Origin: a bacterium
Lineage (GTDB): Bacteria; SZUA-182; DTGQ01
Assembly: GCA_040755755.1 (NCBI GenBank)
Contig: JBFLZW010000036.1
Coordinates: 1 to 64,000, forward strand
Direction of reading: 5' to 3'
DNA: 64,000 nucleotides
Part shown: positions 33,726 through 62,413 of the stretch, piece after piece
Layout: each line of letters opens with the position of its first letter
Position numbering within the stretch: the first letter of the stretch is position 1
Program-made: the position numbers and the translations under genes
The notes under the pieces: model-generated
Told to the model about the DNA's origin: nothing
The model's input: the letters and a program-made list of their open reading frames with translations, nothing else
Database searches by the model: none

Positions 33726-33732
33726 AAAACAA

Positions 33733-35018: not shown

Positions 35019-35034
35019 CCTCCCCTTGCCATCC

Positions 35035-35245: not shown

Positions 35246-35272
35246 TTTATTGAGTTGGAGCACATAAAGAAG

Positions 35273-37114: not shown

Positions 37115-37117
37115 GGT

Positions 37118-40125: not shown

Positions 40126-40128
40126 ACT

Positions 40129-41205: not shown

Positions 41206-41236
41206 GGAAAGGCAAAGACAAAGGCAAAAGAAAATT

Positions 41237-41299: not shown

Positions 41300-41325
41300 C
41301 AAATATTTTTTAAAGGAAAATCCAT

Positions 41326-42702
41326 ATGCATATCTCAGAATTCAAGGGGAAGAGGGTCTTAATCGTCGGTATGGCCAAAACGGGAGTGGCCCTGGCAAAG
41401 CTCCTGGCTGAACAGGGGGCTCTGGTCACGATCAACGATATCCGGCCGGAAGCTGAATTCTCCGCTGTTTTGAGTGAATTGCAGGGGCTTTCATATCGGG
41501 CTGAATTCGGGACGCACCGGGTCGAGACGTTCCTTGACCAGGACCTTATCCTGGTCAGTCCGGGAGTGCCAATCCGGCAGCAGGCTTTTGAGGAGGCGAG
41601 ATCGCACAATATTCCCATTTCCAATGATCTGGAGCTGGCCTTTATGCTCACTCGCGCTCCCTTCCTGGCCATTGCCGGAACCAATGGGAAAACCACGACC
41701 ACAACCCTTTTGGGTGATATCTTCACCCGCGCAGGCCGCAACATCATCCTCGGCGGCAATATCGGCACCCCCCTCTCTCCCCTGGTCTGCGAGCAGCCGG
41801 AGGCGGAGTTTATCATTGCCGAGGTGAGCAGCTTTCAACTGGAGGTCATTCACCGCTTCCGTCCGCGGGTGGGAATCATGCTCAATATCACTCCCGACCA
41901 CCTGGACCGCTATGCATCCTGGGACGAATATGTCCAGGCCAAGGCCCGGCTGTTCGCCAATCAGACAGCCGAAGATTTCGCCCTGATCAATGCCAGGGAT
42001 GCAGCCACGCCTCAACTCCTTGCGATGCGCCAGGGATCGGGGAAGCTGCTCTTTTTCCGGACCGATGCCCCGGTTGACGAAGGCGTGATGATCCGGGGAA
42101 CGGATGTCGTGGCCCGGCTCGATGGACGGGAAGAGCACATCTGCTCGCTTGGCCGGATGAAGCTTTCCGGCGGGCACAACCGGGAAAACGTCCTGACCGC
42201 TGCCCTGACTGCCTGGCTCTGCCGGATCGACCAGGCCGCTATCCAGCACAGCATCGATGAGTTTACCGGGCTTTCCCACCGGATTGAATTTGTCGCTGAA
42301 ATCAGGGGAGTGCGGTTCATCGACGATTCCAAAGGGACCAATGTGGATGCCGTGGTCCGGGCCATCGAGAGTATCACCGGGCCGATCTGGCTGATTCTGG
42401 GAGGCAGGGACAAGGAGAATGATTACCATCCCCTGATCCCCCTGGTCAGGGACCGCGTCAGGGGCATTCTGGCTATCGGCGAATCCAGGGAAAAGGTGGA
42501 TCGGTTTTTCCGGCAGATCGTTCCGGTTTATTGTTTCGATTCTTTCAAGGGAGCGGTGCAGCAGGGTTTTTCCCTGGCTGCTCCGGGAGACACGGTGCTG
42601 TTGTCTCCGGCCTGCGCCAGTTTCGATATGTTTCAAAGCTATGCCCATCGCGGGCAGGTTTTCAAACAGCTTGTTCAGGAGCTCAAGGATGCCGAGGGCT
42701 AG
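41326..42702 (+). CDS. murD: UDP-MurNAc-L-Ala:D-glutamate ligase MurD
   Basis: This 458-residue ligase adds D-glutamate to UDP-MurNAc-L-alanine. It has the N-terminal VLIVGMAKTGVALA nucleotide fold, LVSPGVP, the P-loop AIAGTNGKTTTTTLLG, GGNIGTPL, EVSSFQLE, LNITPDHLDRY and FIDDSKGTNVDA. The length and order of motifs are typical. The start at 41326 follows the palindromic repeat with GGAAA upstream. The 3' end overlaps ftsW by 14 bases. Confidence 0.95.
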   Translation: MHISEFKGKRVLIVGMAKTGVALAKLLAEQGALVTINDIRPEAEFSAVLSELQGLSYRAEFGTHRVETFLDQDLILVSPGVPIRQQAFEEARSHNIPISNDLELAFMLTRAPFLAIAGTNGKTTTTTLLGDIFTRAGRNIILGGNIGTPLSPLVCEQPEAEFIIAEVSSFQLEVIHRFRPRVGIMLNITPDHLDRYASWDEYVQAKARLFANQTAEDFALINARDAATPQLLAMRQGSGKLLFFRTDAPVDEGVMIRGTDVVARLDGREEHICSLGRMKLSGGHNRENVLTAALTAWLCRIDQAAIQHSIDEFTGLSHRIEFVAEIRGVRFIDDSKGTNVDAVVRAIESITGPIWLILGGRDKENDYHPLIPLVRDRVRGILAIGESREKVDRFFRQIVPVYCFDSFKGAVQQGFSLAAPGDTVLLSPACASFDMFQSYAHRGQVFKQLVQELKDAEG

Positions 42703-43786
42703 GAACTACGATCAGATTCTCTTTCTAACGGTGGTGATGCTCATCGGCCTGGGGCTGGTCATGGTGTACAGTTCAAGCGCACTGGTGGCCGAGGGTTCCC
42801 GCTACCAGGTGTCGCCCTTTTACTTCCTGAAGAAACAGGCCCTGTATGCCGGGCTGGCCATGCTGGTTCTCTTTTGCACGATGTCTGTTCCCTATGGCTG
42901 GTGGCGTACCTGGACCTATGTGATCCTTCTGTCGTCGCTCATCCTGCTGATGCTGGTCTTCCTTCCCGCTCTGGGAAGACAGTCCGGCGGAGCCATGCGG
43001 TGGCTGAATCTTGCCGGTATCACCTTTCAACCGGCTGAGATTGCCAAATTTGCCCTGATGCTGTATCTGGCGCATTTTCTGACCAAAAAGGCGGAAGCAA
43101 TCGGAAATATGAAGGCCATATTTCTGCCGCTGTGCATTGTCCTTGGCTTTTCGCTTCTCCTGATTGTGAAGCAGCCGGACCTTGGCACCAGTGTGCTGGT
43201 TATGGCCGTAGCCTTTGCCCTGATCTTTGCCGCAGGAGCCAGAAAAAGCCACCTTTTCGGGCTGGGCCTGCTATTTCTGACAGTTCTGGCGGGACGGATT
43301 TACCTGATCGATTATCAATGGCGAAGAATCGTGACCTTCCTGGACCCCTGGAAAGACCCGAAAAAGGGAGGATATCAGATAATTCAATCCTTATGTGCCC
43401 TGGGCACCGGAGGGTGGTTTGGTCTGGGTCTGGGACAGGGAATCCAAAAGCGGGGGTATCTTCCCGAAGCGCATACGGATTTCATTTTTTCCGTTATTGG
43501 CGAGGAGCTTGGCCTGATCGGTGCACTGGCTGTTCTGGTCCTGTTCGGGGTGTTCATCTGGCGGGGATTCAGGATCAGCCGCCAGAGCAAGGACCCCTTT
43601 GCCTGTTACCTGGCCCTGGGAGTCACCTGTCTGATCGGCCTGCAGGCGCTGATTAATGTCGGCGTAGCCGCAGGAGTATTACCAACCAAGGGGCTGCCCC
43701 TGCCATTTGTCAGTTACGGCGGCTCTTCCCTGGTGGTGAATGCTGTAGCTGCGGGAATTTTACTGAATATCTCTCAACATGCGTAA
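42689..43786 (+). CDS. ftsW: Septal peptidoglycan polymerase FtsW
   Basis: This 365-residue SEDS-family lipid II polymerase works with FtsI at the septum. About nine to ten membrane helices are visible. Diagnostic stretches are MVYSSSA, GGAMRWLNLAGITFQPAEIAKFA, VKQPDLGTS, the GYQIIQSLCALGTGGWFGLGLGQGIQKRGYLPEAHTDFIFSVIGEELG loop and PTKGLPLPFVSYGGSS. I chose the ATG at 42689 with AGGAG seven bases upstream. Conventional gene order (ftsW between murD and murG) supports FtsW over RodA. Confidence 0.94.
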   Translation: MPRARNYDQILFLTVVMLIGLGLVMVYSSSALVAEGSRYQVSPFYFLKKQALYAGLAMLVLFCTMSVPYGWWRTWTYVILLSSLILLMLVFLPALGRQSGGAMRWLNLAGITFQPAEIAKFALMLYLAHFLTKKAEAIGNMKAIFLPLCIVLGFSLLLIVKQPDLGTSVLVMAVAFALIFAAGARKSHLFGLGLLFLTVLAGRIYLIDYQWRRIVTFLDPWKDPKKGGYQIIQSLCALGTGGWFGLGLGQGIQKRGYLPEAHTDFIFSVIGEELGLIGALAVLVLFGVFIWRGFRISRQSKDPFACYLALGVTCLIGLQALINVGVAAGVLPTKGLPLPFVSYGGSSLVVNAVAAGILLNISQHA

Positions 43787-43905
43787 GATGCATCGAAAGC
43801 CGAAAAGGCCGGACTCACCTGATCTTCTTTTCGGCATATTGGCTGGAAAAGTTCGATGATGGAAATGAAAAATTTTGATTATAGCGAATTTACGGAAGAA
43901 AAACG

Positions 43906-45048
43906 ATGAACATCATCCTGGCTGGCGGAGGAACAGGCGGGCATCTGTATCCCGGAGTGGCTATTGCCCAGGAGTTTCGGAGGCAGAGGCCGGATTCCCA
44001 GATTCTGTTTTGCATAACCAGGCGAAAGATCGACCAGCAGATTATTTCCGAAGAAGGATGGAGATACAGTACACTGCCGGTCGAAAGTTTCCGGGGTGTT
44101 TCCTGGCGTACCGTGCGGGCTTTGGGGGGTCTTGCCTGGAGCATCCGGCAGGCAGGCCGTCTGGTGCAGAGCTTTCATCCATTGCTGATCATCGGCCTTG
44201 GGGCGTACCCTTCGGTTCCGATGATCGTGGCCGGAAAATGGCACAGGGTTCCGCTCGTCATCCAGGAGCAGAACATTTTTCCCGGAGGAGCGAATAAGAT
44301 GCTGGCCAGATGGGCTGAGCGGGTGTTTATCTCATTTGCGGGTACGGAAAAGTATTTTCCTTCCGTGCCCGACGAGAGAATCATCCTGACCGGAAACCCT
44401 GTCCGCCAGGCAGCAGCCGGGAGTGAGGGTGAGAGTAACAGCAGTTTTCGGTCACTGCTTGGCCTGGAAGAAGGGAAATTCACCCTGCTGATCTTTGGCG
44501 GGAGCAAAGGTGCGCACAGGATCAACGAGGCGGTGCTGGAAGGGCTGGCCGGCCTTCCCAAGGGGCTTGGTGAGAAGCTTCAGATCATCCACCAGACCGG
44601 GCAGGAGGATTTTTACCGTGTGCAGCAGCACTATCAGGAACTTCCGGTCAGGGCAACAGCCCTGCCCTTCATCTACCGGATGATGGAAGCCTATCAGTCG
44701 GCGGACCTGGTAGTCTGCCGGGCCGGGGCCACCACCGTGGCCGAGATCACCCTGATGGGCAAAGCGGCCATCATGATCCCCTATCCGTATGCGGTTAACG
44801 ATCATCAGGCCATGAACGCCGCAGAGCTCCAGAAAGTGGGTGCTGCGGAAATGATTCTGGAACGGGATCTTACGGGTGCCGGTTTGTGGGCCAGGATACA
44901 GACATTGATGGAGCATCCCCAGATGCTGGCCAAAATGCAGGAAGAGTCAAAACGGCTGGGGAAGCCGGAGGCGGCATCGAGGATCGTGCAGGAATGCCTG
45001 AAGGTAGTTGGAGAGAAGTCAGGAGTCAGGAGCCAGGAGCCAGAATAA
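43906..45048 (+). CDS. murG: UDP-GlcNAc:lipid I N-acetylglucosaminyltransferase MurG
   Basis: This 380-residue peripheral membrane GT-B glycosyltransferase makes lipid II from lipid I. It has ILAGGGTGGHLYPGVAIAQE at the start, GAYPSVP, QEQNIFPG, LLIFGGSKGAHRIN, and CRAGATTVAEI before PYPYAVNDHQ. The 3' end runs into a dispersed AGGAGTCAG repeat, so the final dozen residues (EKSGVRSQEPE) are repeat-encoded and probably not functional. A 119-base gap with a GCCGAAAA/TTTTCGGC hairpin separates it from ftsW. Confidence 0.95.
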   Translation: MNIILAGGGTGGHLYPGVAIAQEFRRQRPDSQILFCITRRKIDQQIISEEGWRYSTLPVESFRGVSWRTVRALGGLAWSIRQAGRLVQSFHPLLIIGLGAYPSVPMIVAGKWHRVPLVIQEQNIFPGGANKMLARWAERVFISFAGTEKYFPSVPDERIILTGNPVRQAAAGSEGESNSSFRSLLGLEEGKFTLLIFGGSKGAHRINEAVLEGLAGLPKGLGEKLQIIHQTGQEDFYRVQQHYQELPVRATALPFIYRMMEAYQSADLVVCRAGATTVAEITLMGKAAIMIPYPYAVNDHQAMNAAELQKVGAAEMILERDLTGAGLWARIQTLMEHPQMLAKMQEESKRLGKPEAASRIVQECLKVVGEKSGVRSQEPE

Positions 45049-45054
45049 AAGAGT
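45016..45054. repeat. AGGAGTCAG repeat overlapping the murG 3' end
   Basis: Four tandem units (AAGTCAGGAGTCAGGAGCCAG type) end in a core-like AATAAAAGAGTA. The left arm matches the elements at 35147 and 50429, but no complementary right arm follows. The murG stop codon lies inside it. Confidence 0.75.
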
Positions 45055-45068
45055 AAGGGCAAAGAATT

Positions 45069-46475
45069 ATGCACTGGAAGATCAACCACATACATTTTAT
45101 CGGCATTGGCGGTATCGGCATGAGCGGTCTGGCCGGGTTGCTCCACAACCTGGGCTTTCGGGTGAGCGGATCGGATATTGCCGAATCGGAAAATACCCTG
45201 CACTTGCGCAAGCTCGGCGTCGCCGTGACCATTGGCCATCATCCTGACAATATCGGCTCTGCCGATGTGGTGGTCTATTCTTCAGCCATCCGGCAGGATA
45301 ACCCTGAGCTTCTGGCCGCTCGAAACTCCACTGCTCCGCTTATCCCCAGAGCGGAAATGCTGGCTGAGCTGATGCGCATGAAGTACGGCATTGCCATTGC
45401 CGGAACTCATGGGAAAACCACTACCACCTCGATGATCGCCACGGTGCTGGCCGAGGGCGGCCTTGATCCCACTGCCGTCATCGGCGGCAGGTTGGCCAGT
45501 TTTGGCAGCAATGCCTGGCTGGGGCAGGGGGATTTTCTGGTGGCCGAGGCGGATGAAAGTGACGGCTCCTTTTTGCAATTGAGCCCTGCCATTGCCGTGG
45601 TCACTACCCTGGATGAAGAGCATATGGACTATTACGGCTCACTGGATCGGTTGAAGGCCGCCTTCCTGGATTTCATCAATAAGGTGCCTTTCTACGGAAC
45701 CGCAGTCATCTGCCTGGATCAGGGGAATATTCAGGCCCTGGTGCCTGACATCCGGAAACGGTATATCTCCTATGGTCTGATCAGCCGGACGGACCTTACG
45801 GCTTCAGCCATCGAGGCCGCAGGGCTGCAATCTTCCTTTGAGGTTATCTGGAAGGAACAAAAACTTGGCCGGATGGTGCTGAACGTGCCGGGAATCCATA
45901 ACGTCTATAATTCCCTGGCTGCTACAGCCGTAGGTCTTGACCTTGGACTTTCCTTTGACACTATCCGGGAGGGCCTGGCTGCCTTCCGGGGAGCGGACCG
46001 GCGATTCCAGATCAAGGCCAGGGTGAACAACACCTATGTGGTCGATGATTACGGGCATCATCCTGCGGAGATACAGGCTACTCTGGCCACAGCCAGGAGC
46101 GTTCTGGCCACTGAAGCGGAAGGGGCAGTAACGGGCCGCCGCCTGATCGTGATCTTCCAGCCTCACCGCTACACCAGAACCAGGGATTTGCTGGCGGAGT
46201 TCGCTACTGCCTTTTACCAGTCCGATACCCTGATCATCACGGATATCTATCCGGCTGGAGAAAGGCCGATCGAGGGCATCAATGCCCTGGCAATGGCCGA
46301 AGGGGTCAGACAGAGCGGCCATACGGATGTGCACTACATTCCTGACAAGGATGAGATACCGGCCCTGATCGGACATATGGTCCGGCCCGGAGATATGATT
46401 CTGACCCTGGGTGCCGGAGATATCTGGAAGCTCGATTCCCGGATCGTGGCCCTGGTCGAGGAGAAATTTTCATGA
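45069..46475 (+). CDS. murC: UDP-MurNAc:L-alanine ligase MurC
   Basis: This 468-residue cytoplasmic ligase adds L-alanine to UDP-MurNAc. It has HFIGIGGIGMSGLAG at the N-terminus, SGSDI, the P-loop AIAGTHGKTTTTSMIA, AEADESDGSFL, DEEHMDYYGS and VDDYGHHPAEI, with a late FQPHRYTRT. The length is typical. The stop overlaps the murB start (ATGA), so the pair is translationally coupled. Confidence 0.96.
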   Translation: MHWKINHIHFIGIGGIGMSGLAGLLHNLGFRVSGSDIAESENTLHLRKLGVAVTIGHHPDNIGSADVVVYSSAIRQDNPELLAARNSTAPLIPRAEMLAELMRMKYGIAIAGTHGKTTTTSMIATVLAEGGLDPTAVIGGRLASFGSNAWLGQGDFLVAEADESDGSFLQLSPAIAVVTTLDEEHMDYYGSLDRLKAAFLDFINKVPFYGTAVICLDQGNIQALVPDIRKRYISYGLISRTDLTASAIEAAGLQSSFEVIWKEQKLGRMVLNVPGIHNVYNSLAATAVGLDLGLSFDTIREGLAAFRGADRRFQIKARVNNTYVVDDYGHHPAEIQATLATARSVLATEAEGAVTGRRLIVIFQPHRYTRTRDLLAEFATAFYQSDTLIITDIYPAGERPIEGINALAMAEGVRQSGHTDVHYIPDKDEIPALIGHMVRPGDMILTLGAGDIWKLDSRIVALVEEKFS

Positions 46476-47383
46476 TGAGTCGGAGCTTTGCGGACCGGCT
46501 GACAAGCGCTTTTCCGGGAGAGGTGAAATTTCAGGAACCCATGAAATATCATACCTCGTTCGGTATCGGGGGGCCGGCTGAGTGCCTGGCCACAGTAAAG
46601 AGCCTCGATGAATTGCGCCTGCTCCTTTCCCTGGCCGATGAATACCGGCAGCCGGTCTTTATTCTGGGCAGGGGAACCAATATCCTGGTGCGGGATGGAG
46701 GAATCCGGGGGCTGGTGATCCGCCTGGATGGAGAATTTACCAAGGCCGGAGTGCAGAGACATGAACTTATCGGCGGTGCCGCCTGCCCCCTCTCTTCGCT
46801 GCTTCGGCTGTCGGTTCAGCACAAGTTGTCCGGCCTGGAATTTGCTACTGGTATTCCGGGGGCTTTCGGTGGAGCAGTATGCATGAATGCAGGTTCGGCT
46901 GAAGAAGGGATAGGGTCTCTGGTCAGGGACATCCATCTGGTCTATGCAGATGGATCGACCGGAGTGCTGCCAGCCGGGAGCCTGAATTTCTCCTATCGCC
47001 ACTGCTCCCTGCCGGAGGGGAGTATCATTACTGCTATCGCTCTTCAGCTCAGCCAGGTTGAGCATAAGGAGATCATCCTGGCCAGGATCAAAGAGCGGTA
47101 TACGGAGCGGCTGAAATCCCAGCCCCTGCGGGACCGGTCGGCAGGCTGCATATTCAGGAATCCGCCGGGCGAATCAGCGGGCAGGCTGATTGATCAGGCC
47201 GGGCTGAAAGGGCTTTCGATCGGTGGTGCGCAAATCTCGACCATTCATGCCAATTTTATCATCAACCGGGAGGGAGCTTCCTGTTTCGATGTTGTACGGT
47301 TAATCGATGTGATCCGGGAAAAAGTCTATCAATCCTCTGGTTTTACTTTGGAGACAGAGGTTCTGCTCGTGGGAGAAGGATGA
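46472..47383 (+). CDS. murB: UDP-N-acetylenolpyruvoylglucosamine reductase MurB
   Basis: This 303-residue FAD enzyme reduces UDP-GlcNAc-enolpyruvate to UDP-MurNAc. It is a type II MurB: YHTSFGIGGPAE, ILGRGTNILVRD, GIPGAFGGAVCMNAG with the Tyr-loop absent, and SAGCIFRNPPG carrying the active-site Ser. QISTIHANFIIN lies near the end. Genes on both sides overlap by four bases. Confidence 0.95.
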   Translation: MMSRSFADRLTSAFPGEVKFQEPMKYHTSFGIGGPAECLATVKSLDELRLLLSLADEYRQPVFILGRGTNILVRDGGIRGLVIRLDGEFTKAGVQRHELIGGAACPLSSLLRLSVQHKLSGLEFATGIPGAFGGAVCMNAGSAEEGIGSLVRDIHLVYADGSTGVLPAGSLNFSYRHCSLPEGSIITAIALQLSQVEHKEIILARIKERYTERLKSQPLRDRSAGCIFRNPPGESAGRLIDQAGLKGLSIGGAQISTIHANFIINREGASCFDVVRLIDVIREKVYQSSGFTLETEVLLVGEG

Positions 47384-48381
47384 GAGAATCGAGATCGTGG
47401 AGAATGATGAACCAGACAACTGCTGATAAAGGATTAAGAATAATGCCTAAGAAGAATTTATCTGAGATGAAAATTGCTGTACTCATGGGAGGCACCTCTT
47501 CGGAGCGTGAAGTATCGCTCAGGACAGGGCGTGCCATCGAAAATGCGTTGAGAAGCCAGGGGTTTCAGGTAGTGGGTATCGATGCTGACGGCCAGATTGC
47601 CAATAAACTGACAGCCGAGCGGATTGATCTGGTATTTTTGGCTCTGCACGGAAAGAACGGAGAGGATGGATCGGTTCAGGGGCTTTTAGAGATCATGGGG
47701 ATACCGTACACCGGCTCCAATGTTCTGGCCAGCGCTCTTGCCTTTCATAAGGCCAGGACCAAAGCTGTGTTGAGTTTCCATAATATCCCTACGCCAAGGT
47801 TTGCGGTCTTGAGTCAGGCGGATTTTTTATCTCAGCCGGAAGAAACCGAAAAGCTGGTCTGGAAGTATCCGGTCATCGTCAAACCCTGTGAGGAGGGATC
47901 CACCTTTGGTGTTTCTCTGGTGAGGTCTCCCGCTGACCTGGAAGCTGCCTGCGCCCATGCCTTCCGGTATGGCAGGGAAGCCCTGATCGAGGATTTCATC
48001 GATGGACGGGAAGTTACGGTAGGGATTTTGGGCAATCAGACCCTGCCGGTGGTAGAGGTTATTCCCCTGTCAGGGTTTTATGACTATGAATCCAAGTATA
48101 CGCCGGGGAAAACGGAATACGTCGTGCCTGCCCGGCTTGAGGAAAACCTCTATCAGCAGGTTCAATACTGGGGATTGCAGGCTCATCGGGCGCTTGGGTG
48201 CAGGGGCGTATCGAGGGTGGATATCCGGATCGACCGGCAGGGGAACCCCTTTGTGCTGGAGGTCAATACCATTCCCGGTATGACCGAAACAAGCCTTTTG
48301 CCCAAGGCGGCCAGGGTGGCCGGGATTTCGTTTGAGGAACTGGTGAAAAGGATTCTTGTTTCAGCTTGTGAGCAGGACTGA
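47380..48381 (+). CDS. ddl: D-alanine:D-alanine ligase
   Basis: This ATP-grasp enzyme makes the D-Ala-D-Ala dipeptide used by MurF. It has KIAVLMGGTSSEREVSL, LALHGKNGEDG, IPYTGSNVLASALAFHK, IVKPCEEGSTFGVS, EDFIDGREVTVGIL, SRVDIRID and LEVNTIPGMTETSLLPKAA. The frame opens with an ATG overlapping the murB stop (333 residues). In-frame ATGs at 47443 and 47467 are closer to the usual family start, so the first 20-30 residues may not be translated. Confidence 0.94.
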   Translation: MRESRSWRMMNQTTADKGLRIMPKKNLSEMKIAVLMGGTSSEREVSLRTGRAIENALRSQGFQVVGIDADGQIANKLTAERIDLVFLALHGKNGEDGSVQGLLEIMGIPYTGSNVLASALAFHKARTKAVLSFHNIPTPRFAVLSQADFLSQPEETEKLVWKYPVIVKPCEEGSTFGVSLVRSPADLEAACAHAFRYGREALIEDFIDGREVTVGILGNQTLPVVEVIPLSGFYDYESKYTPGKTEYVVPARLEENLYQQVQYWGLQAHRALGCRGVSRVDIRIDRQGNPFVLEVNTIPGMTETSLLPKAARVAGISFEELVKRILVSACEQD

Positions 48382-48403
48382 TACAAATACACAGGGAAAT
48401 GCC

Positions 48404-49156
48404 ATGAGTACCTGGAAGAAGAGACTGTTTATCGCAACCCTGACAGCCCTGACCTGCTCTCTGGCAGTGTGGGGCGGGTACCGGCTCCTGGACAGGATTC
48501 AAACGTTCCGGGTATCCAGGATTACCCTTGCCGGAGCAGAGCGGTGTGATACGAGGAAGATCGGGGAATTGGCCTTTTCAGCAGCCTATGGCCGGTGTAT
48601 CTTCAAGGTCAACCTGCCGGACCTGTATCAGCAGATCCGGTCCGACGGATGGATCAGGAATTTATCCATTCGCCGGGTTATGCCTTCCACCCTGGAGATT
48701 CAGATCGAGGAGCGGGTGCCTTTTGGTATTCTTCATGCCGATCAGCTCTTTCTGGTGGATAGAGAGGGTGTACTGATTACGGCCATAGGGAACAAAAAGG
48801 CATGGAAGAGCCTGCCGCTTATCAGGGGGCTGGATTTGAAGGGGGCTGGCGCAGGCTGTAAGCCTGACTCTCCCGGGCTGGAGTCAGCCCTGAATGCCCT
48901 TGCTCTGATGCAGGAAATGAGAGCCCCGTGGCTGGCAAAGTTTCGGGAAATATCGGTAAAGAGTCCGGAGAATCTCATTCTCTCCAGCCAGGGGAAAGGC
49001 TGTGAGATCCGGCTTGGGAGCAGTAACCTGCGGGAGAACCTCCAGTATTTGAAGTCCGCCTGGAGCACCATCCAGGCCAGTGTGTCCGGTATTCAATATA
49101 TTGACCTGAGATACAAGAATCAGCTTATTATCAAACCACACAAGCATATTGGTTAA
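48404..49156 (+). CDS. ftsQ: Cell division protein FtsQ
   Basis: This 250-residue bitopic divisome protein has a short basic N-terminus and one membrane helix (about residues 8-26). A periplasmic POTRA domain (FRVSRITLAGAERCDTRKIGELA) and the FtsQ beta domain (STLEIQIEERVPFGI, YIDLRYKNQLIIK) follow. FtsQ recruits FtsL/FtsB. I chose the ATG at 48404, preceded by AGGGA, over an upstream in-frame ATG that overlaps ddl. A 25-base gap with GGAGG precedes ftsA. Confidence 0.9.
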   Translation: MSTWKKRLFIATLTALTCSLAVWGGYRLLDRIQTFRVSRITLAGAERCDTRKIGELAFSAAYGRCIFKVNLPDLYQQIRSDGWIRNLSIRRVMPSTLEIQIEERVPFGILHADQLFLVDREGVLITAIGNKKAWKSLPLIRGLDLKGAGAGCKPDSPGLESALNALALMQEMRAPWLAKFREISVKSPENLILSSQGKGCEIRLGSSNLRENLQYLKSAWSTIQASVSGIQYIDLRYKNQLIIKPHKHIG

Positions 49157-49181
49157 CTCTCCGAAAAAGGAGGTGAGGGAA

Positions 49182-50426
49182 ATGGTTAAGAAAGATAACC
49201 TTATTGTAGGGCTGGATATTGGCACAACCAAGATTTGTACTATTATCGGAGAGGTTGGCAGCCGGGGTGAGATCGATATCATCGGCCTTGGCCTCAGCCC
49301 TTCCCACGGATTGCGCAAGGGAGTGGTCATCGACCTTGAAAGCACGGTCGAATCCATCAAAAGATCGGTCCATGAGGCGCAGGTCATGTCCGGCATTCAG
49401 GTGGATTCAGCCTATGTCGGCATTGCCGGAGGGCATATCAGGGGCATCAACAGCCGGGGGGTGATTGCTATTTTAGGCAAGAACCGGGAGATCACCCAGA
49501 ACGATATCGACCGGGTCATCGATGCTGCCAAGGCTGTAGCTTTGCCCGTGGACCGGGAGGTGATCCATGTCCTGCCGCAGGAGTATATCGTCGATAATCA
49601 GGACAAGATCAAGCAGCCTCTGGGAATGAGCGGGGTCCGGCTGGAGGCGGAAGTCCATATCGTGACCGGAGCCATTACTTCCGCCCAGAATATTATCAAA
49701 AGTGTCAACCGTGCCGGGCTTGAGGTAAAGGATATCATTCTGGAGCAGCTCGCTTCCAGCGAGGCTACCCTGACCCATGATGAAAAGGAACTGGGCGTGG
49801 CGGTGATCGATATTGGAGGAGGGACCACGGATTTAGCCATTTTCGTGGATGGAAGCATCCGGCACACGGCTGTTATTTCACTTGGCGGGGACAACTTTAC
49901 CCACGATATTGCCGTAGGTTTGAGGACCCCTAACCAGGAGGCCGAACAGATAAAAAGAGAGTACGGGTGTGTGATGGCCGCCCTGCTGGATGGGGAGGAA
50001 ACGATCGATGTGCCCACAGTCGGAAGGCGAAGGCCCCGGACCGTATCGCGTCAGGTACTGGCGGAAATTATGGAACCCAGGGCTGAGGAGATTTTCGGAC
50101 TGGTTGACCGGGAGATCAAGAGCAGCGGCTATGGTGATCTGATTCCGGCAGGAGTGGTCATTACCGGCGGCTCGTCGCTCATGGCCGGGATGGTGGAAAT
50201 TTCCGAACAGATTTTTGACTTACCCGTGCGGATAGGCATCCCAACCGGCTTTGGCGGGCTGGCGGATGTGGTCAGAAGTCCTGAATACTCCACCGGGGTG
50301 GGCCTGATTCTCTATGGATGGAAGAGCGGTCAAAAAAAGGTTAATTTCAAGACTCAACAGAGCGATAGTCACCTTTTCCAAAACATTCTCAAGCGGATGA
50401 AAGACTGGATGAAGGATTTCTTTTAA
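49182..50426 (+). CDS. ftsA: Cell division protein FtsA
   Basis: This 414-residue actin-like ATPase tethers FtsZ to the membrane. It has [16 protein letters not shown] (phosphate 1), [11 protein letters not shown] in the 1C domain, [15 protein letters not shown] (phosphate 2) and [12 protein letters not shown] (adenosine). The C-terminal amphipathic helix ([17 protein letters not shown]) is the membrane-targeting sequence. The ATG at 49182 has GGAGG and GAGGGA upstream. A palindromic repeat element fills the gap before ftsZ. Confidence 0.96.
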
Positions 50427-50428
50427 AA

Positions 50429-50516
<88 letters not shown>

Positions 50517-50541
50517 AATGCTTATAAAGGAGGGCATGGTG

Positions 50542-51810
50542 ATGCCAATAGATCTTGAAGAGAATTACGAATGTTCAGCGAATATCAAGGTAATCGGGGT
50601 GGGAGGAGGCGGAAGCAACGCTGTCAACCGGATGATTAACTCCAAAATGCAGGGTGTGGAGTTTTACGTGGTAAATACCGACTTACAGGCACTCAGAAAT
50701 TCTCCGGCGGTAAACCGGCTGCAACTGGGCGCCAGGCTGACCCGGGGATTGGGGGCCGGAGCAAATCCGGAAATCGGCCGCAAGGCTGCCCAGGAGGATG
50801 AGGAAAAGATTCTGGAAGTTGTCCAGGGAGCGGATATGCTTTTTATCACCGCCGGTATGGGAGGCGGCACCGGGACCGGTGCAGCTCCGGTGATTTCCAA
50901 TATTGCCAAAAAGGCCGGTATTCTGACCGTGGCTGTGGTGACCAAGCCTTTTATCTTCGAGGGGAAAAGAAGGATGATGCAGGCCGAAAAAGGGCTTGAG
51001 GAGCTGAAGGCAGCCGTTGACTCTCTGGTCACGATCCCCAATCAGCGGCTTTTGAACATCATCGAACCTCAGACCTCGATGAGGAGTGCCTTCAGCATGG
51101 CGGATGAAATTCTGCACCAGGCAGTGCAGGGAATTTCGGATCTGATTACCAAGCATGGAGAGATTAACCTGGATTTTGCCGATGTTAAGACCATCATGTC
51201 GGAAAAAGGAACCGCTCTGATGGGCACCGGCATTGCCAGAGGAGAAAAGCGGGCTTTAGAGGCGACCAAGAAGGCCATATCGAGTCCTCTGCTGGAGGAT
51301 AACTCTCTCGAAGGTGCCCGTGGGGTTCTCCTGAACATCACCGGCGGAAGCGACCTGACCCTGTGGGAAGTGAACGAGGCATCGTCAGCTATTTCCGAGC
51401 TGGTTCACGAGGATGCCAATATCATTTTCGGTTCCGTGCATGACGAAGGAATGGTGGATGAGGTCCGGGTAACCGTGATCGCCACCGGATTCGACCACCG
51501 GGAAGAGAGCGTGCAGAAACTGGAAAACGTGGTAACGCAGGCAGCCAGGCTGAAGCCGGAAAGCTACAATCCCCGAAACCGGGATGTCCCGACCTACCTG
51601 CGGACCCAGGACAAGGTCCAGGAGAAATTCCAGGAGAAAAGGGCAGGGAAAAGAGAAGGCCTTGAAAGCCTGTCCTCTTCATCGGGTCCTCGTTTTGCCC
51701 GGGGCCGGTCGATAGTCAGTTCGGAGAATCTGGGCCTTCTGGACAATCCGGATAGGGATGAAGACGAGCATCTGAACGTGCCGACTTTCCTCCGGCGTCA
51801 GATTGACTGA
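50542..51810 (+). CDS. ftsZ: Cell division protein FtsZ
   Basis: This 422-residue tubulin-like GTPase forms the Z ring. It has [17 protein letters not shown] at the N-terminus, the tubulin signature [15 protein letters not shown], and NADEI-like [11 protein letters not shown]. The synergy-loop segment is [15 protein letters not shown] linker of about 70 polar residues leads to the conserved C-terminal peptide ([10 protein letters not shown]) that binds FtsA. I chose the ATG at 50542 with AAAGGAGG eight bases upstream over ATGs at 50518 and 50536. Confidence 0.96.
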
Positions 51811-55642: not shown

Positions 55643-57217
55643 ATGAATAAAAAAATATGTCTTGTTCTGATGATAACGCTGGCAGCCTGCTGCTGGCCGG
55701 GGAGTTATCTCATGTCCGCATCGGCGCAGACAAGAGCGGTGAGCATCAATCTGGCCAATGCTTCCGGGGCTCCCGGCTCCCTTATCACGCTACCAGTGTC
55801 TTTGCAGGCCAATGGAAATCAGGTGGGCGCTTTGTCCGTTGATATCGGCTTTAATTCGCAGATGCTTCTCAATCCCACGGCCAGGCTCAATCCGGCCATT
55901 GCCGAGGGGACTTCGAGTAATAAAACCCTGATCAGCAGCACCCCGTCAACGGGTGTTGTACGGATGGCCGTCATTCCCAACTTTTCCGGCACCAGCGGAG
56001 TGGGCTCGTCAACCGGAACAATTCCGGACGGTCAGGTGGCCACCATTACCTTCTCGCTCGCCGCATCCGCTGCACCAGGGGCGAAATTGACGCTGACCAA
56101 TTCTCCTTCTTCCTCCACACCGGCAGGAGCAGCGTTGTCCACCACCGGCCAGGGCGGTGAGATAACCGTCAGTGCAGGTACGCCGACATGGCAGGAAATT
56201 TGCGATGGGAGGGACAATAACGGCAATGGCCAGATCGATGAGGGCCTGACTCAGACCTGTGCCACTGCCTGTGGCAGGGGCCATGAAGTTTGCCAGAATG
56301 GACGCTGGGTCAACTGCAATGCACCTTTGCCTCAGACCGAAGTCTGCGACGGGAAGGACAATGATTGTGACAACCAGATAGACGAAGGAGTGATGAATAC
56401 CTATTACCCGGACCGCGACGGCGATGGGTACGGTCAGTCCGCCGGAAGCAGGCAGGCCTGCTCTCCTCCTTCCGGCTATGTCGCCAACAGTCTCGACTGC
56501 GACGATGCGGACAGCACTGTCCATCCACGGGCTCCGGAAATCCCCTGCAATGGCAAGGATGATGATTGCCAGGGAGGGGATGATACAGTCCATTGCGAAT
56601 CAATACCGGCAGGCGGCTGCACGGAAGACGATTCAGGAGCCATAGATATCCAGGGAGCTTCGGGAAGGCCGGGAGAGGAAGTTACCATTGCAGTCAGAGT
56701 CAAGTACGCGCCTGGTTCAATCTCCGCCTTTGGCTTCGATGTCCTCTTCGATGAAAGCGTTCTGGAATACTCAGGCTATGCGAGAGGAGACCTGACAACC
56801 TCCTTCGACCTGTTTGAAGTTAATCTGATCGACTCAGGCAGAGTGCGGATAGGCGGCCTGACTGACAGCAGCCTCCCGCAGGGGGCAAACGGGTCTTTGG
56901 TCCTGCTGAAATTTATTGTGATCAGCGATCCGGAAGAGGAATGCTATCCCCTGGAACTGGATGACCTGTTAGATGACGTTGCACACTACTTCTCTGCAAG
57001 CCGGGGATGCTTCTGCATCGGGTTAAGCTGCACCGGTGATCAGAACGGCGATGGGAAAATCACTCCCCAGGATGCCCTGGTAGTCTTCAGGTGCTACCTT
57101 GGAATAGGTGAATGCCCTCCGTGCACTGATGTCGATGGGAACGGGCAGACTACCCCGTCCGATGCGCTGTGCCTGTTCAAGGCATACCTTGGACAGCCTT
57201 CCTGCCTGGATGATTAG
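55643..57217 (+). CDS. Exported cohesin-MopE repeat-cohesin-dockerin protein
   Basis: This 524-residue exported protein has a signal peptide (1-28) and a first cohesin-like domain (about 33-172). A Cys-rich MopE-type region follows (about 184-310) with EICDGRDNNGNGQIDEG, EVCDGKDNDCDNQIDEG and PDRDGDGYG. A second cohesin-like domain spans about 325-440. It ends with two dockerin-type repeats (GDQNGDGKITPQDALVVFRCYLG and DVDGNGQTTPSDALCLFKAYLG). Carrying both partners of the cohesin/dockerin pair suggests self-assembly or scaffold function. It lies 17 bases after the beta-helix gene, in one operon. Confidence 0.82.
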   Translation: MNKKICLVLMITLAACCWPGSYLMSASAQTRAVSINLANASGAPGSLITLPVSLQANGNQVGALSVDIGFNSQMLLNPTARLNPAIAEGTSSNKTLISSTPSTGVVRMAVIPNFSGTSGVGSSTGTIPDGQVATITFSLAASAAPGAKLTLTNSPSSSTPAGAALSTTGQGGEITVSAGTPTWQEICDGRDNNGNGQIDEGLTQTCATACGRGHEVCQNGRWVNCNAPLPQTEVCDGKDNDCDNQIDEGVMNTYYPDRDGDGYGQSAGSRQACSPPSGYVANSLDCDDADSTVHPRAPEIPCNGKDDDCQGGDDTVHCESIPAGGCTEDDSGAIDIQGASGRPGEEVTIAVRVKYAPGSISAFGFDVLFDESVLEYSGYARGDLTTSFDLFEVNLIDSGRVRIGGLTDSSLPQGANGSLVLLKFIVISDPEEECYPLELDDLLDDVAHYFSASRGCFCIGLSCTGDQNGDGKITPQDALVVFRCYLGIGECPPCTDVDGNGQTTPSDALCLFKAYLGQPSCLDD

Positions 57218-57287
57218 ACGTGGGTGGTGAAACTATAAGCCCGGCTGAAGGGGAACACCTTCAGCCGGGCTTTGATGCTTTTGGGGT
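57081..57287 (+). repeat. 207-bp direct repeat, left copy
   Basis: This segment covers the last dockerin repeat of the cohesin gene, its stop codon and its terminator. A copy of the same length with about 12 mismatches lies at 62136-62342. Identity is complete from codon GAT-GAT-TAG through the terminator, and the differences lie in the coding part. Confidence 0.92.
57238..57271 (+). terminator. Rho-independent terminator of the cohesin gene
   Basis: A perfect 14-bp G/C-rich stem (AGCCCGGCTGAAGG and its complement) with a six-base loop is followed by TTGATGCTTTT. It lies 20 bases after the cohesin-dockerin stop codon. Confidence 0.85.
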
Positions 57288-57346
57288 ATCCCGCGTAACG
57301 TCATTGCATTCAGGGTGGAGAAGAGTATTTTTGTGATTAAAATTTA

Positions 57347-57375
57347 TTGTATCGACCGTTGTTATTATATATAAT
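57347..57375 (+). promoter_or_regulatory. Promoter of the KaiC-cassette operon
   Basis: TTGTAT (57347-57352) and TATAAT (57370-57375) are separated by 17 bases in an AT-rich region, about 38 bases upstream of the first cassette gene. The strong terminator upstream isolates this unit. Confidence 0.6.
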
Positions 57376-57412
57376 ATTATTTTTACGGTAAGGTTAGTGG
57401 GAAGGTCTGTCT

Positions 57413-58225
57413 ATGAAACCTATGAAACATACCGATGGCTTATTTAATAATTGTAAAATTACTATAGAAGAATGGCAAAACGAACTGGAAGGTGACAACA
57501 TAGGGAAAAAGATCGTCAAGAACTTCAAAGAAGAGACTAACCTGGACAGGAAGGGATTTTTAAGCTTTTATGCACGGGTCTGTAAAATGTACCCCGATAG
57601 GGCTTCACGAAACTTAAATGCACAAACCATTATAGAATATTGTGCTGACCATAAATATGCAAATCCTTCCCCAAAGCCTCTCACCCTGAGAGGTCCCAAG
57701 ATCGACCCAAGTAATGACGAAAAGCTTTACAGGCTTGAATCAGCTCGCAAGTTTTTCAAACAGTTTACAGAAAAGGGTCATGTGCCCTATAACAGATATA
57801 CGTGGTTTCTCAGTAAGATTAAGGAGAAGCAACTCGATAAGGATGACTTAAAAGGCAAGTTCATTGGCAATGAACGGGGAATTGTATGGTGCACGTGGGA
57901 AAAATCGGCTATAGAGGCAGAAAAGCAGGGGGATACTCTCGATGATCTGCGGGATAGATTAGGGCTTTCTCACCTGAATGGGGGTGAGGAACTAATCCGA
58001 GTGATATATGATTGGAAAGTGATCGACGGGCTGAAAAGTGGACTGAGAGTGCCCACTGTTTTAGATGCCGGCAGTACCCCATATTTCAAACCAGGTGGCT
58101 GGACAATGAGCCTGACGAGGAAGAAGGAGGGGTTGCCGGAGATGGTTCATGAAAAAATTCCGATGGATAGTGTAGATATAGACTATAAAGGCAAGTTGAC
58201 CAAGTCTGCTCCCAGGAGATTTTAA
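57413..58225 (+). CDS. Unknown protein, first gene of the KaiC/solute-binding cassette
   Basis: I do not recognise this 270-residue protein. It is hydrophilic and Lys-rich, has no signal peptide or membrane helix and no obvious nucleotide-binding motif. The N-terminal third looks helical and charged. The middle contains an IVWCTWEKSAIEAEKQGDTL segment, and the C-terminal third holds several conserved-looking Gly/Trp positions (YFKPGGWTMSL). The start has GGAAGG upstream. It is followed one base later by the next gene, so the two are co-translated. The sequence is AT-richer than the flanking genes, which suggests transfer. Confidence 0.7.
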   Translation: MKPMKHTDGLFNNCKITIEEWQNELEGDNIGKKIVKNFKEETNLDRKGFLSFYARVCKMYPDRASRNLNAQTIIEYCADHKYANPSPKPLTLRGPKIDPSNDEKLYRLESARKFFKQFTEKGHVPYNRYTWFLSKIKEKQLDKDDLKGKFIGNERGIVWCTWEKSAIEAEKQGDTLDDLRDRLGLSHLNGGEELIRVIYDWKVIDGLKSGLRVPTVLDAGSTPYFKPGGWTMSLTRKKEGLPEMVHEKIPMDSVDIDYKGKLTKSAPRRF

Positions 58226-58226
58226 G

Positions 58227-59303
58227 ATGGCAGCAAGATCCAAAACCAAGGAAGGAAATGCGGGGAGAATGTCTTCAAGAGGCGAAGTAACATTTACAAA
58301 GCTCGTATCATACACCGATGAGAAGTTGAAAGAGTATTTCCATGATCGGCTGACTGAGAAAGAGCTTAACCCCTCTTTAAATATAAACCACGATGAAGTA
58401 CCGGAGGATTTCCTTATCGGGTTCTATCAAAGTGGGGATGAAACGAGCAAAGCCAGATGTAAAGAAATTGTAAAAGAGCTTTTGCAAGAGCTTTTGATTG
58501 ATGAAATCAATAATAGGAATATTGATAACTGTTACCTTTCGCGCTTACTCTATCTCTGCGATATATTTGTAGTAGAAGAGGCCATGAAAATAGTATTAGC
58601 ATTGGCTCAGGAAGGAAGATTCATTAATCAGCATGGCTGCTATGGAGATATCCATGAACAGCTATTAAAGAACTTAATATTCATGCAAGGCACCAGAACA
58701 GAAGACATCAATCTTTTCTTGACTCCGTTTTGGTTATCATATATCGAGAACCCTTTGTATACCGGTGCTGCCTTTTTTGGCTTATGTAAAAGTAACTGCG
58801 ATAAGGCAATAGAAAAGCTGCCGGTGTTGGTAAAGGCAGCCAGCGAATCGCCTGAAAAGTATGACCTTAAATTTATGCTAGACTTTTTTATCTTTTTTAT
58901 CGATGAGTGTGGTGGGGGAGAGCCAATTTTGCCCAGGATAGGGGAGAGTTTGAGATATGCAAGCCTCGATATTAAAGAGAAAATCCTGGCAATTGTAAAG
59001 GAGCTCAAATACTCTCCACAAGCTATTAAAGAATTTGAAAGAAAAATGGATTGCATTGACCACTTTGTGAATAAGATAATAAAACGCTATAAAGTTAAGA
59101 AAATAGATAAAGATAATAAGATGATTATCAAAAATTCAGGCATTAGACAGGTTGCTTTCAGCTACTGTATTAGTGAACTTACTGATGATGATCCCACGTC
59201 AGAGCAAATATTTTCCCGCCACCGCAGTGAAATTGCGGACCAGTTAAAACAGAACAAAATTACTCTCTCACCAAAGAATGTATGCTCAAGAAGCATTCGA
59301 TAA
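58227..59303 (+). CDS. Unknown helical protein, second gene of the cassette
   Basis: I do not recognise this 358-residue protein. It is predicted mostly alpha-helical, with repeated amphipathic helices (LKNLIFMQG, LPVLVKAASESPEKY, VKELKYSPQAIKEFERK) in a HEAT-like or TPR-like rhythm. Such repeats often form scaffolds. It has no signal peptide. The C-terminus is basic. The start lies one base after the preceding stop codon. The gene ends just before, or within, the start of the giant ATPase gene. AT-rich codon use matches its two partners. Confidence 0.7.
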   Translation: MAARSKTKEGNAGRMSSRGEVTFTKLVSYTDEKLKEYFHDRLTEKELNPSLNINHDEVPEDFLIGFYQSGDETSKARCKEIVKELLQELLIDEINNRNIDNCYLSRLLYLCDIFVVEEAMKIVLALAQEGRFINQHGCYGDIHEQLLKNLIFMQGTRTEDINLFLTPFWLSYIENPLYTGAAFFGLCKSNCDKAIEKLPVLVKAASESPEKYDLKFMLDFFIFFIDECGGGEPILPRIGESLRYASLDIKEKILAIVKELKYSPQAIKEFERKMDCIDHFVNKIIKRYKVKKIDKDNKMIIKNSGIRQVAFSYCISELTDDDPTSEQIFSRHRSEIADQLKQNKITLSPKNVCSRSIR

Positions 59304-59313
59304 GAGTATAAAA

Positions 59314-62127
59314 ATGGAAACAAGACATTTAGATCATTCCCTTTTTAAAATTGATAGCTGGGCTAAAATATTAAGAGGTTCCAGGTTATTTCCCAATAAT
59401 AAGGGATATAACCTTCTGATCAAGGGACTTCCAGGTACAGGCAAAACATCATTAGGTCTTTCAATCCTTCATAAAGTTTGCGAGGAAAGGAGAGCTAAAG
59501 CGAGATTGGTTACCTTTGTAGAGCCTCTTAATCAAATTCTGGAGTTAATCGGGTTATTCCCCTGGAACTTCCGGAAGAGGCTCGACATTGTTGAGACTAC
59601 CCTCAGCAATCTCGACATCCTGGGCTTCCTGGAAGATGAAGCCCTCGGAACAGAGATACAATATCTCATGATAGATGGAATCAGCATATTGAAGTATCAA
59701 ACGCGGGGATTAAAACCTCGGACAAAAAAATTGATAGACTGCCTGAAAGAGAGAAAGCTTTCGACAATATTGATTTCAGAAGAAGCGGTACCTGGCGAGG
59801 ATAGATTTTTTGAATACCTGGTAGATGGAATTATAAACTTGACAGTAAAAGGGGCTGATAGACAGCGGTTCCTTGAAATAAGCAAGATGAGATATAGTAA
59901 TTATGCTCCAGGGAAACATGGCTTTGACTTTCGAAAAAGTCTGCCGCCTCATGATAATAAGATTGATATCCAGATATACCCCTCAATTAAATGTTACCTT
60001 GAAGATGAAGCGGTTGATCAAGATTATAAATCGATATCATCCAGTATCGAGGGTTTTGACCGGTTAATAACAGGATCATCAAAAGTCCCTTTTGATCCGG
60101 GAGACGTTGTCCTGGTTATGGGCGAGCCGAGCTCAGGGAAGACCTTGTTCAGCCTGGAATTTATAAATGGTATTCAAAAAGGAGAGAATAACCAGGAAAT
60201 TGGAGTTTGGATCTCCCTTGAGGAAGACCTGGAGGGGTTTAAAAAGTATACTAAACTCTTTTCTGAAAATAAAAAACTCTCCTTCACCCAATTATTGGAA
60301 AATGACAGGTTCAAGTTTATCTATTTTGATCCCTCCCGTTTCCGGCTCGATGAATTCAGTAGTGCTATAATGGTGGTATTACAAAATTATAAGGTTACCC
60401 GGCTGGTCATTGATTCCCTTTCTATCCTGGAAAGGAAATTTCAAACCTCAAACGAGTGGGTGGAATATCTTTCAAGCTTACTGAGGACCATAAAAAAACG
60501 AAAGCCTGTCTCTCTGTTAACCTATGGGATTTCTAAATATTTTCAAACCTTGGGTAATCTGGAAATTTCTCATAACCCTGATGTGGATATCATTATCCAT
60601 CTCAGAAACTATGATATGAATAATAACCTTGTCAAGGCCCTGGAAGTCATCAAATCCAGAGGAAAAGAATATAACTCACTCTTGCAAAGTGTTGAGATCA
60701 CCAGAGAAAACGGGTTGATTTTAAAGGAACAGGGATGGGCAAGAGTCGGTCTTTTAGCTGGAAAACCAGAAAATATCTCTGAAGCCCGCCTATTCTTTAA
60801 ATATTTCTACCAAAATTATTCTACTCAATGGATTGACAAGGTAATATTTGACAGTTTTGCCAATAGATATTCAAAAAATGAGACCTTCAAGATGGTAGGA
60901 AGAACCCATCCCTCACCAGACCATTGGAGTTTCCAGGGGTACGGAGGGCCTGGCCATTCCAATACAAAGGTAGTATGCCTGAAGAAATATATTATGGACA
61001 GGTTAAGAGATACAAAGAAGGTCTTTGTGGATGTTCCGAAAGATGTTCTGGGAGACAATATCATTGCCAGGCAACTCAGGAGTGATTCTCTTTGGAAGGA
61101 TAACATAGGTGGAAAGAACAACAGCCAGATGATCCCTATCTATGCGGACCTTGGAGTGCTCTGCTATCAGCCTGAATACAGTACCTGTTTATTTGGGGTA
61201 AATGGATATCCTGATACATGGAATGATTTACTGGATTGGACCGACAGGTGGCGGGATCATGGGGTTCTGAAGGGGAAAATAGAAGGCAGTAAAGAACCAA
61301 GTCAAGGTATTACCTATCTTTTCGTAATGCCAAGTCTGGCAACAGATCTGGGCAACTTCATGGGCTTTTTTCTGGAGATCCTTGGTGCTCATGGAGGAAG
61401 TCTCTTTCCCTGTAAGGAAGAGGAGAACTGGTCATATAGTACCCATAATAAGAAAGACAACAACGAATTTTTTATCGAACACTTCAGACAGGGCATTGAA
61501 AACGATGCATTTCTGGAAACATTATTTTTTTTGCGAGATCTGGTCAAGAAGAAAGTCTGTCCTGACCCAAGACAGGGGGCACATTACCACTGCGCAATCT
61601 TTTCCCGGAGATGGTATAGTAAAATCGATCAGTATCCTGAGGGTGATGAAAAACGACCGGGTTTCGAAAAAGCCATACGATTCTCCATTGCTCCGTTACC
61701 CAAAGTGAAGAAAGATAAGGGCAGTGTTTCCGCATTAGAAATTTATTGCGCCGGAATTATCAAAGGCGCCCTTGCTCCTGAAACCGGATGGATGTTTATC
61801 AAGGAACTGGTCAGTTTTGAAGCGGATACCAAGCGGATTAATGATAGACGTGGCATTCCTATTGATAGAAAGCTGTGCCTTTCGACAAAAGAAAAGCCCG
61901 AACGGGAGGAGGATTTCAGTAAGGTAATACGCAAGATATTAGGGATTGAGGGTGGAAGGCCTTCAATAATAAGAAATACCGATATTCCTTACTACTACGA
62001 TATTGAAAACCTTATCGCTCCGGAAATCGAGAATATCTTTGATAAAGATGATTCCGCATTAAAAGAAATTCAGCTTAAAATACTCAACAAAGTCATAGGG
62101 TATTTTGCTCCATCGTCCAGCCATTAG
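59314..62127 (+). CDS. Two KaiC/RecA-type ATPase domains fused to a solute-binding-protein-like domain
   Basis: This protein of about 937 residues has two RecA-fold domains of KaiC type and a large C-terminal domain. Domain 1 has Walker A GLPGTGKTS (Lys44 from this start) and Walker B YLMIDG. Domain 2 has GEPSSGKTL (Lys276), a SLEEDLEG catalytic-Glu pair and RLVIDSLS. From about residue 490 the sequence resembles family 1 extracellular solute-binding proteins: ADLGVLCYQPEYSTCLFGVNGYPDTWNDLLDWTDRW, then LVKKKVCPDPRQG. There is no signal peptide, so the binding domain should face the cytoplasm. The frame is open back to 59278, but the ATG at 59314 has an AAGAG site and avoids overlap. Confidence 0.75.
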   Translation: METRHLDHSLFKIDSWAKILRGSRLFPNNKGYNLLIKGLPGTGKTSLGLSILHKVCEERRAKARLVTFVEPLNQILELIGLFPWNFRKRLDIVETTLSNLDILGFLEDEALGTEIQYLMIDGISILKYQTRGLKPRTKKLIDCLKERKLSTILISEEAVPGEDRFFEYLVDGIINLTVKGADRQRFLEISKMRYSNYAPGKHGFDFRKSLPPHDNKIDIQIYPSIKCYLEDEAVDQDYKSISSSIEGFDRLITGSSKVPFDPGDVVLVMGEPSSGKTLFSLEFINGIQKGENNQEIGVWISLEEDLEGFKKYTKLFSENKKLSFTQLLENDRFKFIYFDPSRFRLDEFSSAIMVVLQNYKVTRLVIDSLSILERKFQTSNEWVEYLSSLLRTIKKRKPVSLLTYGISKYFQTLGNLEISHNPDVDIIIHLRNYDMNNNLVKALEVIKSRGKEYNSLLQSVEITRENGLILKEQGWARVGLLAGKPENISEARLFFKYFYQNYSTQWIDKVIFDSFANRYSKNETFKMVGRTHPSPDHWSFQGYGGPGHSNTKVVCLKKYIMDRLRDTKKVFVDVPKDVLGDNIIARQLRSDSLWKDNIGGKNNSQMIPIYADLGVLCYQPEYSTCLFGVNGYPDTWNDLLDWTDRWRDHGVLKGKIEGSKEPSQGITYLFVMPSLATDLGNFMGFFLEILGAHGGSLFPCKEEENWSYSTHNKKDNNEFFIEHFRQGIENDAFLETLFFLRDLVKKKVCPDPRQGAHYHCAIFSRRWYSKIDQYPEGDEKRPGFEKAIRFSIAPLPKVKKDKGSVSALEIYCAGIIKGALAPETGWMFIKELVSFEADTKRINDRRGIPIDRKLCLSTKEKPEREEDFSKVIRKILGIEGGRPSIIRNTDIPYYYDIENLIAPEIENIFDKDDSALKEIQLKILNKVIGYFAPSSSH

Positions 62128-62137
62128 GTTTCTGATA

Positions 62138-62272
62138 GTCTTTCGGTGCTATCTTGGAATCAGTGAATGCCCTCCGTGCACTGATGTCGATGGGAACGGT
62201 CAGACTACTCCATCCGATGCGCTGTGCCTGTTCAAGGCATATCTCGGGCAGCCGTCCTGCCTGGATGATTAG
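62138..62272 (+). pseudogene. Orphan dockerin-repeat 3' end of a second cohesin gene
   Basis: In frame this encodes VFRCYLGISECPPCTDV through to CLDD and a stop, the same peptide as the end of the intact cohesin gene except for one Gly-to-Ser change. Nearly all base differences are synonymous, so both copies evolved under selection as real genes before this one lost its 5' part to the cassette. No start or upstream domains remain. Confidence 0.8.
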
Positions 62273-62292
62273 ACGTGGGTGGTGAAACTATA

Positions 62293-62326
62293 AGCCCGGC
62301 TGAAGGGGAACACCTTCAGCCGGGCT
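62293..62326 (+). terminator. Terminator copy after the KaiC cassette
   Basis: This is an exact copy of the 14-bp terminator hairpin at 57238-57271. It now ends transcription of the KaiC cassette. Confidence 0.82.
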
Positions 62327-62413
62327 TTGATGCTTTTGGGGTTGACCTTGGTGCCTTCCCTGGCGGATAATAGAGTGCATACATAAACGTCAATCGAACC
62401 TCTCGAGGTAATC

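Follow-up and report, generated by a model that had tools for sequence, protein, structure and literature searches.

How a solute-binding domain might come to work inside a bacterial cell is the question raised by a cassette of three genes in a 64,000-nucleotide stretch of DNA (hereafter the window) from a bacterium of the GTDB lineage SZUA-182, DTGQ01. Such domains of type 1 are mainly familiar as partners in transport that act outside the cytoplasm. The third open reading frame (ORF) of the cassette, ORF3, encodes two KaiC-type ATPase domains fused to such a domain, and we refer to the product as KKS, for KaiC-KaiC-solute-binding protein (SBP). Taking all evidence together, we see about an even chance that the cassette is a horizontally acquired intracellular ligand-sensing and signalling unit. 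It would represent a variant of the KaiC-type signalling ATPases and not a clock, a transporter or a known defence system, and we regard it provisionally as novel.

A KaiC-KaiC protein with a solute-binding domain

A preliminary description of the window had proposed the fusion, and profile searches confirmed it. Pfam KaiC matches ORF3 in two stretches (E 1e-41) and a solved KaiC aligns to residues 42-471 (E 1e-21). The first KaiC-like domain carries the Walker A motif GLPGTGKT at residue 50 and a single E of the glutamate pair (EE), and the second contains the Walker A motif GEPSSGKT at 282 together with the EE pair at 315-316. The C-terminal part of about 450 residues (approximately 500-949) corresponds to a full type-1 solute-binding domain. 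This region alone is weakly matched by SBP_bac_1 (E 0.02); a profile of five SBP relatives, compared with the profile of an ordinary lipoprotein SBP, aligned over 309 columns with an E-value of 7e-15 and also retrieved ordinary SBPs from genomes. The latter (G308, encoded with permeases; L042 and L044-L048) are transport proteins and were used for homology support only.

The SBP region is thus homologous to the SBPs of type-1 ATP-binding cassette (ABC) transporters (SBP_bac_1/SBP_bac_8), but unlike the ordinary SBPs retrieved, ORF3 has neither a signal peptide or lipobox nor a transmembrane segment, is fused to ATPases, and has no permease genes nearby. Since ORF3 lacks an N-terminal signal and any membrane segment, KKS is a protein of the cytosol, and its solute-binding domain is most likely cytosolic as well. 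ABC transport was therefore rejected, and the sequence supports the view that the cassette is not a transporter.

Cyanobacterial circadian KaiC shares with ORF3 the tandem KaiC domains, the Walker A motif in both of them and the EE pair in domain 2. However, the phosphosites S431/T432 of the KaiC CII domain are lost, being N and P in ORF3 according to the alignment, the solute-binding domain is an addition, and no kaiA or kaiB was found among the cassette ORFs or the Pfam-scanned neighbours, the rest of the genome not having been searched for them. With the phosphosites absent and no kai partners beside ORF3, a circadian clock was discarded as a candidate, a conclusion that the sequence likewise supports. 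ORF3 also missed the NCBIfam cut-offs for KaiC equivalogs (104 bits vs 408 and 55 vs 546).

The cassette can also be compared with the KaiC-like ATPases proposed as archaeal signalling hubs (Makarova, Galperin and Koonin 2017, mBio, as cited in PMC5847659). As far as this citation conveys the proposal, both have a KaiC ATPase that, judged by domain architecture, is coupled to sensor and output modules, whereas the cassette described here is bacterial, has a putative cytosolic SBP sensor and is combined with ORF1/ORF2 or with an HD domain and winged helix-turn-helix as partners. Full-text searches, which did not include the mBio paper, returned no paper describing a KaiC-SBP fusion, and the libraries name neither ORF1 nor ORF2 nor the fusion, in agreement with the earlier impression that the combination matches no described system. 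A second, ordinary double-KaiC protein is encoded in the same genome (L017:1105-3069, contig C1), followed by a response-regulator-like gene.

Recurrence of the fusion and exchange of its partners

Two short conserved patterns, which yield lower bounds for all counts, were run against 84,980 species genomes and retrieved four relatives. Three of them, from metagenome-assembled genomes (MAGs) of Myxococcota, Poribacteria and Aminicenantes, have the KKS fusion. The protein of Myxococcota MO_167.B37 (1044 residues) is collinear with ORF3 over the whole protein (233 bits, E 1e-67) and is encoded by the third gene after those for proteins of 323 and 271 residues, so that the three-gene order is kept. 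The first of these starts with two 4Fe-4S motifs and ends in an ORF1-like C-terminus. Just upstream of this cassette lies an apparent topoisomerase III-RecQ fusion (1373 residues, read by eye; L035:2185-6306). The protein of Poribacteria NC_groundwater_1808 has 2119 residues, the C-terminal part of which is collinear with ORF3 (223 bits, E 1e-63), and the same HD-KaiC-KaiC-SBP layout is found in a protein of 2027 residues in Aminicenantes LacPavin MAG_46_26. These one-gene forms have a large insertion inside the SBP and an HD domain plus a putative winged helix (read by eye) in place of the two partner genes; the HD residues are present, and the domain gives weak matches to HD-CE and Cas3-HD. 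The two genes are located at L029:6023-12382 (Poribacteria) and L037:6248-12331 (Aminicenantes).

The motifs WSFxGxxGxGHSN, PxYxDxGxL and SPExGW are kept across the four KKS lineages. The fourth relative, at a contig end in Dive96_bin10.231, which belongs to the window's own class, is SBP-only, and a search of 195 genomes of the phylum gave no match, a result that is uninformative because it had no positive control. Since the fusion occurs in three other phyla, once in the same gene order, it likely belongs to a genuine system for sensing inside the cell, one that is so far undescribed.

The partner genes also occur apart from KKS. In genome G157, homologues of ORF1 and ORF2 are adjacent (pairwise E 5e-11 and 3e-6, respectively) and are followed by a gene for a KGGVGR-variant ATPase of 1037 residues with tetratricopeptide repeats (TPRs; NF047398, E 7e-34). 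From this we conclude, on sequence grounds, that ORF1-ORF2 is a module exchangeable between different nucleoside triphosphatases (NTPases). Homologues of the cassette genes thus do co-occur, either as an ORF1-like protein, a second protein and KKS in Myxococcota or as ORF1 and ORF2 with another NTPase in G157, and the preliminary description was right to treat the genes as a recurring set. Upstream of the G157 locus (L028:7215-12404) are a likely insertion sequence transposase and a weakly C25-peptidase-like gene.

Among its relatives, ORF1 consists of a variable N-terminus and a conserved C-terminal domain (approximately residues 149-253), which is common to the homologues in G157 and G359 and, weakly, to the Myxococcota protein. 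A profile of this domain identified one further member in 386 genomes, the one in G359 (E 1e-6; hhalign 1e-6), which is followed by a TPR protein of 808 residues; none of its neighbours has detectable similarity to ORF2. Matches in G082, G088 and G044 were too weak to be accepted (E 0.02-0.04). The CRISPR array of G359 (L060:1430-5000) has a 61-bp period and is adjacent to cas1; the TPR gene is about 1 kb away.

The SBP profile also retrieved a protein of 745 residues in genome G137 (L049:7120-9357; SBP_bac_1 6e-29, HTH_18 2e-24, KaiC 5e-23), which combines a single KaiC domain and an SBP with a C-terminal DNA-binding domain of the AraC type. This architecture can serve as independent evidence for a KaiC-SBP unit acting as a possible cytosolic sensor, here with a DNA-binding output domain. 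The protein resembles a transcription factor with the solute-binding domain as its apparent sensor; its best plasmid match (H1) covers 74% in two pieces.

Layout and insertion site of the cassette

The three ORFs (Table 1), found as a compact unit on the + strand as had been proposed, together span 57413-62127 and have the size of one transcription unit. ORF2 starts 2 bp past ORF1 behind a good ribosome site (AGGAG), and the first 26 bp of ORF3, as listed, overlap with ORF2; an ATG in the same frame follows at 59314, directly past the ORF2 stop. Of the remaining features that had been ascribed to the unit, the higher AT content was borne out, with a GC content of 0.38-0.43 in the cassette genes vs 0.53-0.56 in the flanking dockerin, MltA and fts genes and a third-position GC content of 0.41-0.46 vs 0.61-0.64. 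A promoter and terminator of its own were not recovered: promoter-like matches showed no excess over chance (16 vs 11.5 +/- 4.2 in shuffles), and the hairpin belongs to the dockerin gene and is present as an identical copy at both cassette ends.

Table 1 Coordinates of the cassette genes and of the repeat copies on either side.
Feature	Position	Strand	Description
ORF1	57413..58225	+	270 aa; without database family
ORF2	58227..59303	+	358 aa; family not recognised; homologue in G157
ORF3 (KKS)	59278..62127	+	949 aa; KaiC-KaiC-SBP
Upstream repeat copy	57077..57287	+	last 45 codons of cohesin/dockerin gene (55643-57217) and terminator hairpin 57237-57272
Downstream repeat copy	62132..62342	+	remnant dockerin 3' end, 45 codons, 2 amino-acid changes, and identical terminator hairpin 62292-62327

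Direct repeats do bracket the cassette, as had been noted, but they represent a duplicated gene 3' end and not transposon ends. The two copies are 211 bp long and 94% identical, and no other full copy exists in the 5.26-Mb genome. They differ at 13 sites, all of them coding and 10 at third codon positions. Since most differences fall on third positions and two amino acids only are changed, the downstream copy can be traced to a dockerin gene that was functional and had diverged slightly; the simplest account is that homologous recombination introduced it or left it behind. The coding part differs by about 9% between the copies while all 70 non-coding bases next to it agree, an uneven pattern that suggests recombination at the terminator.

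The one same-genus genome compared (G001) has a beta-helix gene, a dockerin gene with a single 3' end, a BON-type gene unrelated to the cassette (read by eye) and MltA at the matching site, and no cassette. From the absence of the cassette and the presence of another gene in its place, we conclude that the cassette was inserted, or otherwise gained in its lineage, relative to this sister species, at a site whose cargo varies. A transposon or integrative element was rejected because the cassette contains no transposase or integrase and no terminal inverted repeats with a short target duplication, and because its flanks are a duplicated gene end.

Putative mechanism and competing explanations

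In the sensing and signalling system that we favour, the two KaiC/RecA-like domains of KKS would assemble into an ATP-dependent ring, by analogy with other KaiC proteins. The solute-binding domain, presumably recruited from binding proteins of sugar-type ABC transporters, would close its lobes on an intracellular small solute, which is probably carbohydrate-like if the SBP family is a guide. Closure could then shift the nucleotide state of the ring, which would operate as an ATP switch and might activate or release ORF1-ORF2 as the output that reads this state, with ORF2 as a putative helical scaffold. In the one-gene versions, the output would be the N-terminal HD hydrolase-like domain together with the putative winged helix.

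Several observations weigh against this interpretation. The solute-binding domain could serve solely as a protein-binding scaffold. The four full KKS proteins are a small set, all derived from MAGs or draft genomes, and the Myxococcota cassette, which keeps the gene order, has a first protein with weak similarity to ORF1 (BLASTP 0.002, profile 0.04) and a middle protein without detectable sequence similarity to ORF2. The SBP of the KaiC-SBP-AraC protein is distant from that of ORF3 (pairwise E 6e-4), and this protein may be an independent fusion and not a close relative. Furthermore, ORF1 and ORF2, correctly introduced as unrecognised, have no match in Pfam, NCBIfam or PADLOC and no recognisable enzyme motif. 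Structure prediction, run for both, added little to their description: the ORF1 model is unusable (predicted local distance difference test score, pLDDT, 34), and the all-helical, solenoid-like ORF2 model is of low confidence (pLDDT 53) and gave no significant match in a Foldseek search of the PDB.

The preliminary description had pointed out that such multi-gene NTPase units are often defence or signalling systems, of which KaiC-type signalling is the reading that we favour and defence has circumstantial support. A phage-defence or conflict system, in which KKS would sense a solute or protein derived from infection and ORF1-ORF2 or the HD domain would act as growth-arrest or killing effector, is possible, although we consider it rather unlikely. 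It would be in line with the low-GC insertion, in place of which the same-genus genome has a different gene, with the sporadic spread over distant phyla, and with an ORF1-ORF2 pair common to the locus of a KGGVGR ATPase with TPRs, a motif class discussed with conflict systems. The weak similarity of the HD domain to HD-CE and Cas3-HD points in the same direction. The PADLOC matches, however, are generic P-loop segments only, and with ORF1, ORF2 and the SBP as queries, three scans of viral contigs and searches of plasmids and phages revealed no match. The proximity to defence genes is mixed: the ORF1 homologue of G359 has cas1 and a CRISPR array of over 50 repeats at a distance of no more than about 4 kb, and the window contains an Hma system, but the latter is 26 kb away with the whole mra/mur/fts cluster in between, and none of the genes around the Myxococcota, Poribacteria and Aminicenantes loci could be recognised by eye as a defence gene. 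With NTP-dependent conflict systems (STAND, MoxR-vWA and others) the loci share the combination of an exchangeable NTPase, a repeat protein and a variable partner as well as MinD/ParA-like domains, whereas ORF1 and ORF2 match no library model. The two main surveys of conflict systems (PMC7159879, eLife 2020; PMC8195603, eLife 2021) mention neither KaiC nor solute-binding domains. It is equally tentative to think of a bacterial conflict or immune system of a new class, with a domesticated SBP sensor on a KaiC-KaiC ring, interchangeable outputs, and an ORF1-ORF2 module that is also used with KGGVGR ATPases.

The KaiC-SBP-AraC protein points to solute-responsive regulation as much as to defence, and its gene lies near one of the amylo-alpha-1,6-glucosidase family. 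Together with the sugar-type SBP families and with window neighbours that encode beta-helix and cohesin/dockerin proteins and a lytic transglycosylase (Pfam), this might suggest a nutrient-responsive regulator through which an oligosaccharide inside the cell would adjust the metabolism of polysaccharides or of the cell wall. We judge this improbable: these neighbours are old syntenic genes kept in the same-genus genome without the cassette, no sugar-catabolic gene occurs in the cassette or beside KKS in the three other lineages, and the HD and KGGVGR-TPR partners are atypical of sugar regulators. A remnant or by-product, in which an ordinary KaiC protein was joined to an SBP gene by chance, would fit an AT-rich insert beside a broken duplicate gene end. 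Yet all three frames are open, the three-gene order recurs and four lineages have the fusion in collinear form and with its motifs conserved, which makes such an accident very hard to credit.

At least four lineages have a solute-binding domain within an ATPase, and a fifth genome encodes the distant KaiC-SBP-AraC protein, which suggests that such domains can act as intracellular ligand sensors that drive KaiC switches. The cassette would represent an undescribed defence family if its output is anti-phage, and if not, a new bacterial signalling hub; either way, ORF1 and ORF2 are two unnamed families, common to otherwise unrelated NTPase systems, with a testable role.

Elsewhere in the window, the Hma-type system occupies 18352-31594 and comprises an HmaC ATPase (E 5e-112), an HmaB methylase (8e-136) and an HmaA helicase (3e-185). 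Its locus also contains a RAMP/Cmr1-Csm3-like gene, which is an unusual partner, a PADLOC match to PDC-M48B and a helix-turn-helix gene. An apparently complete mra/mur/fts division and wall cluster (read by eye) extends over 33640-51810 and separates the cassette from the Hma system.

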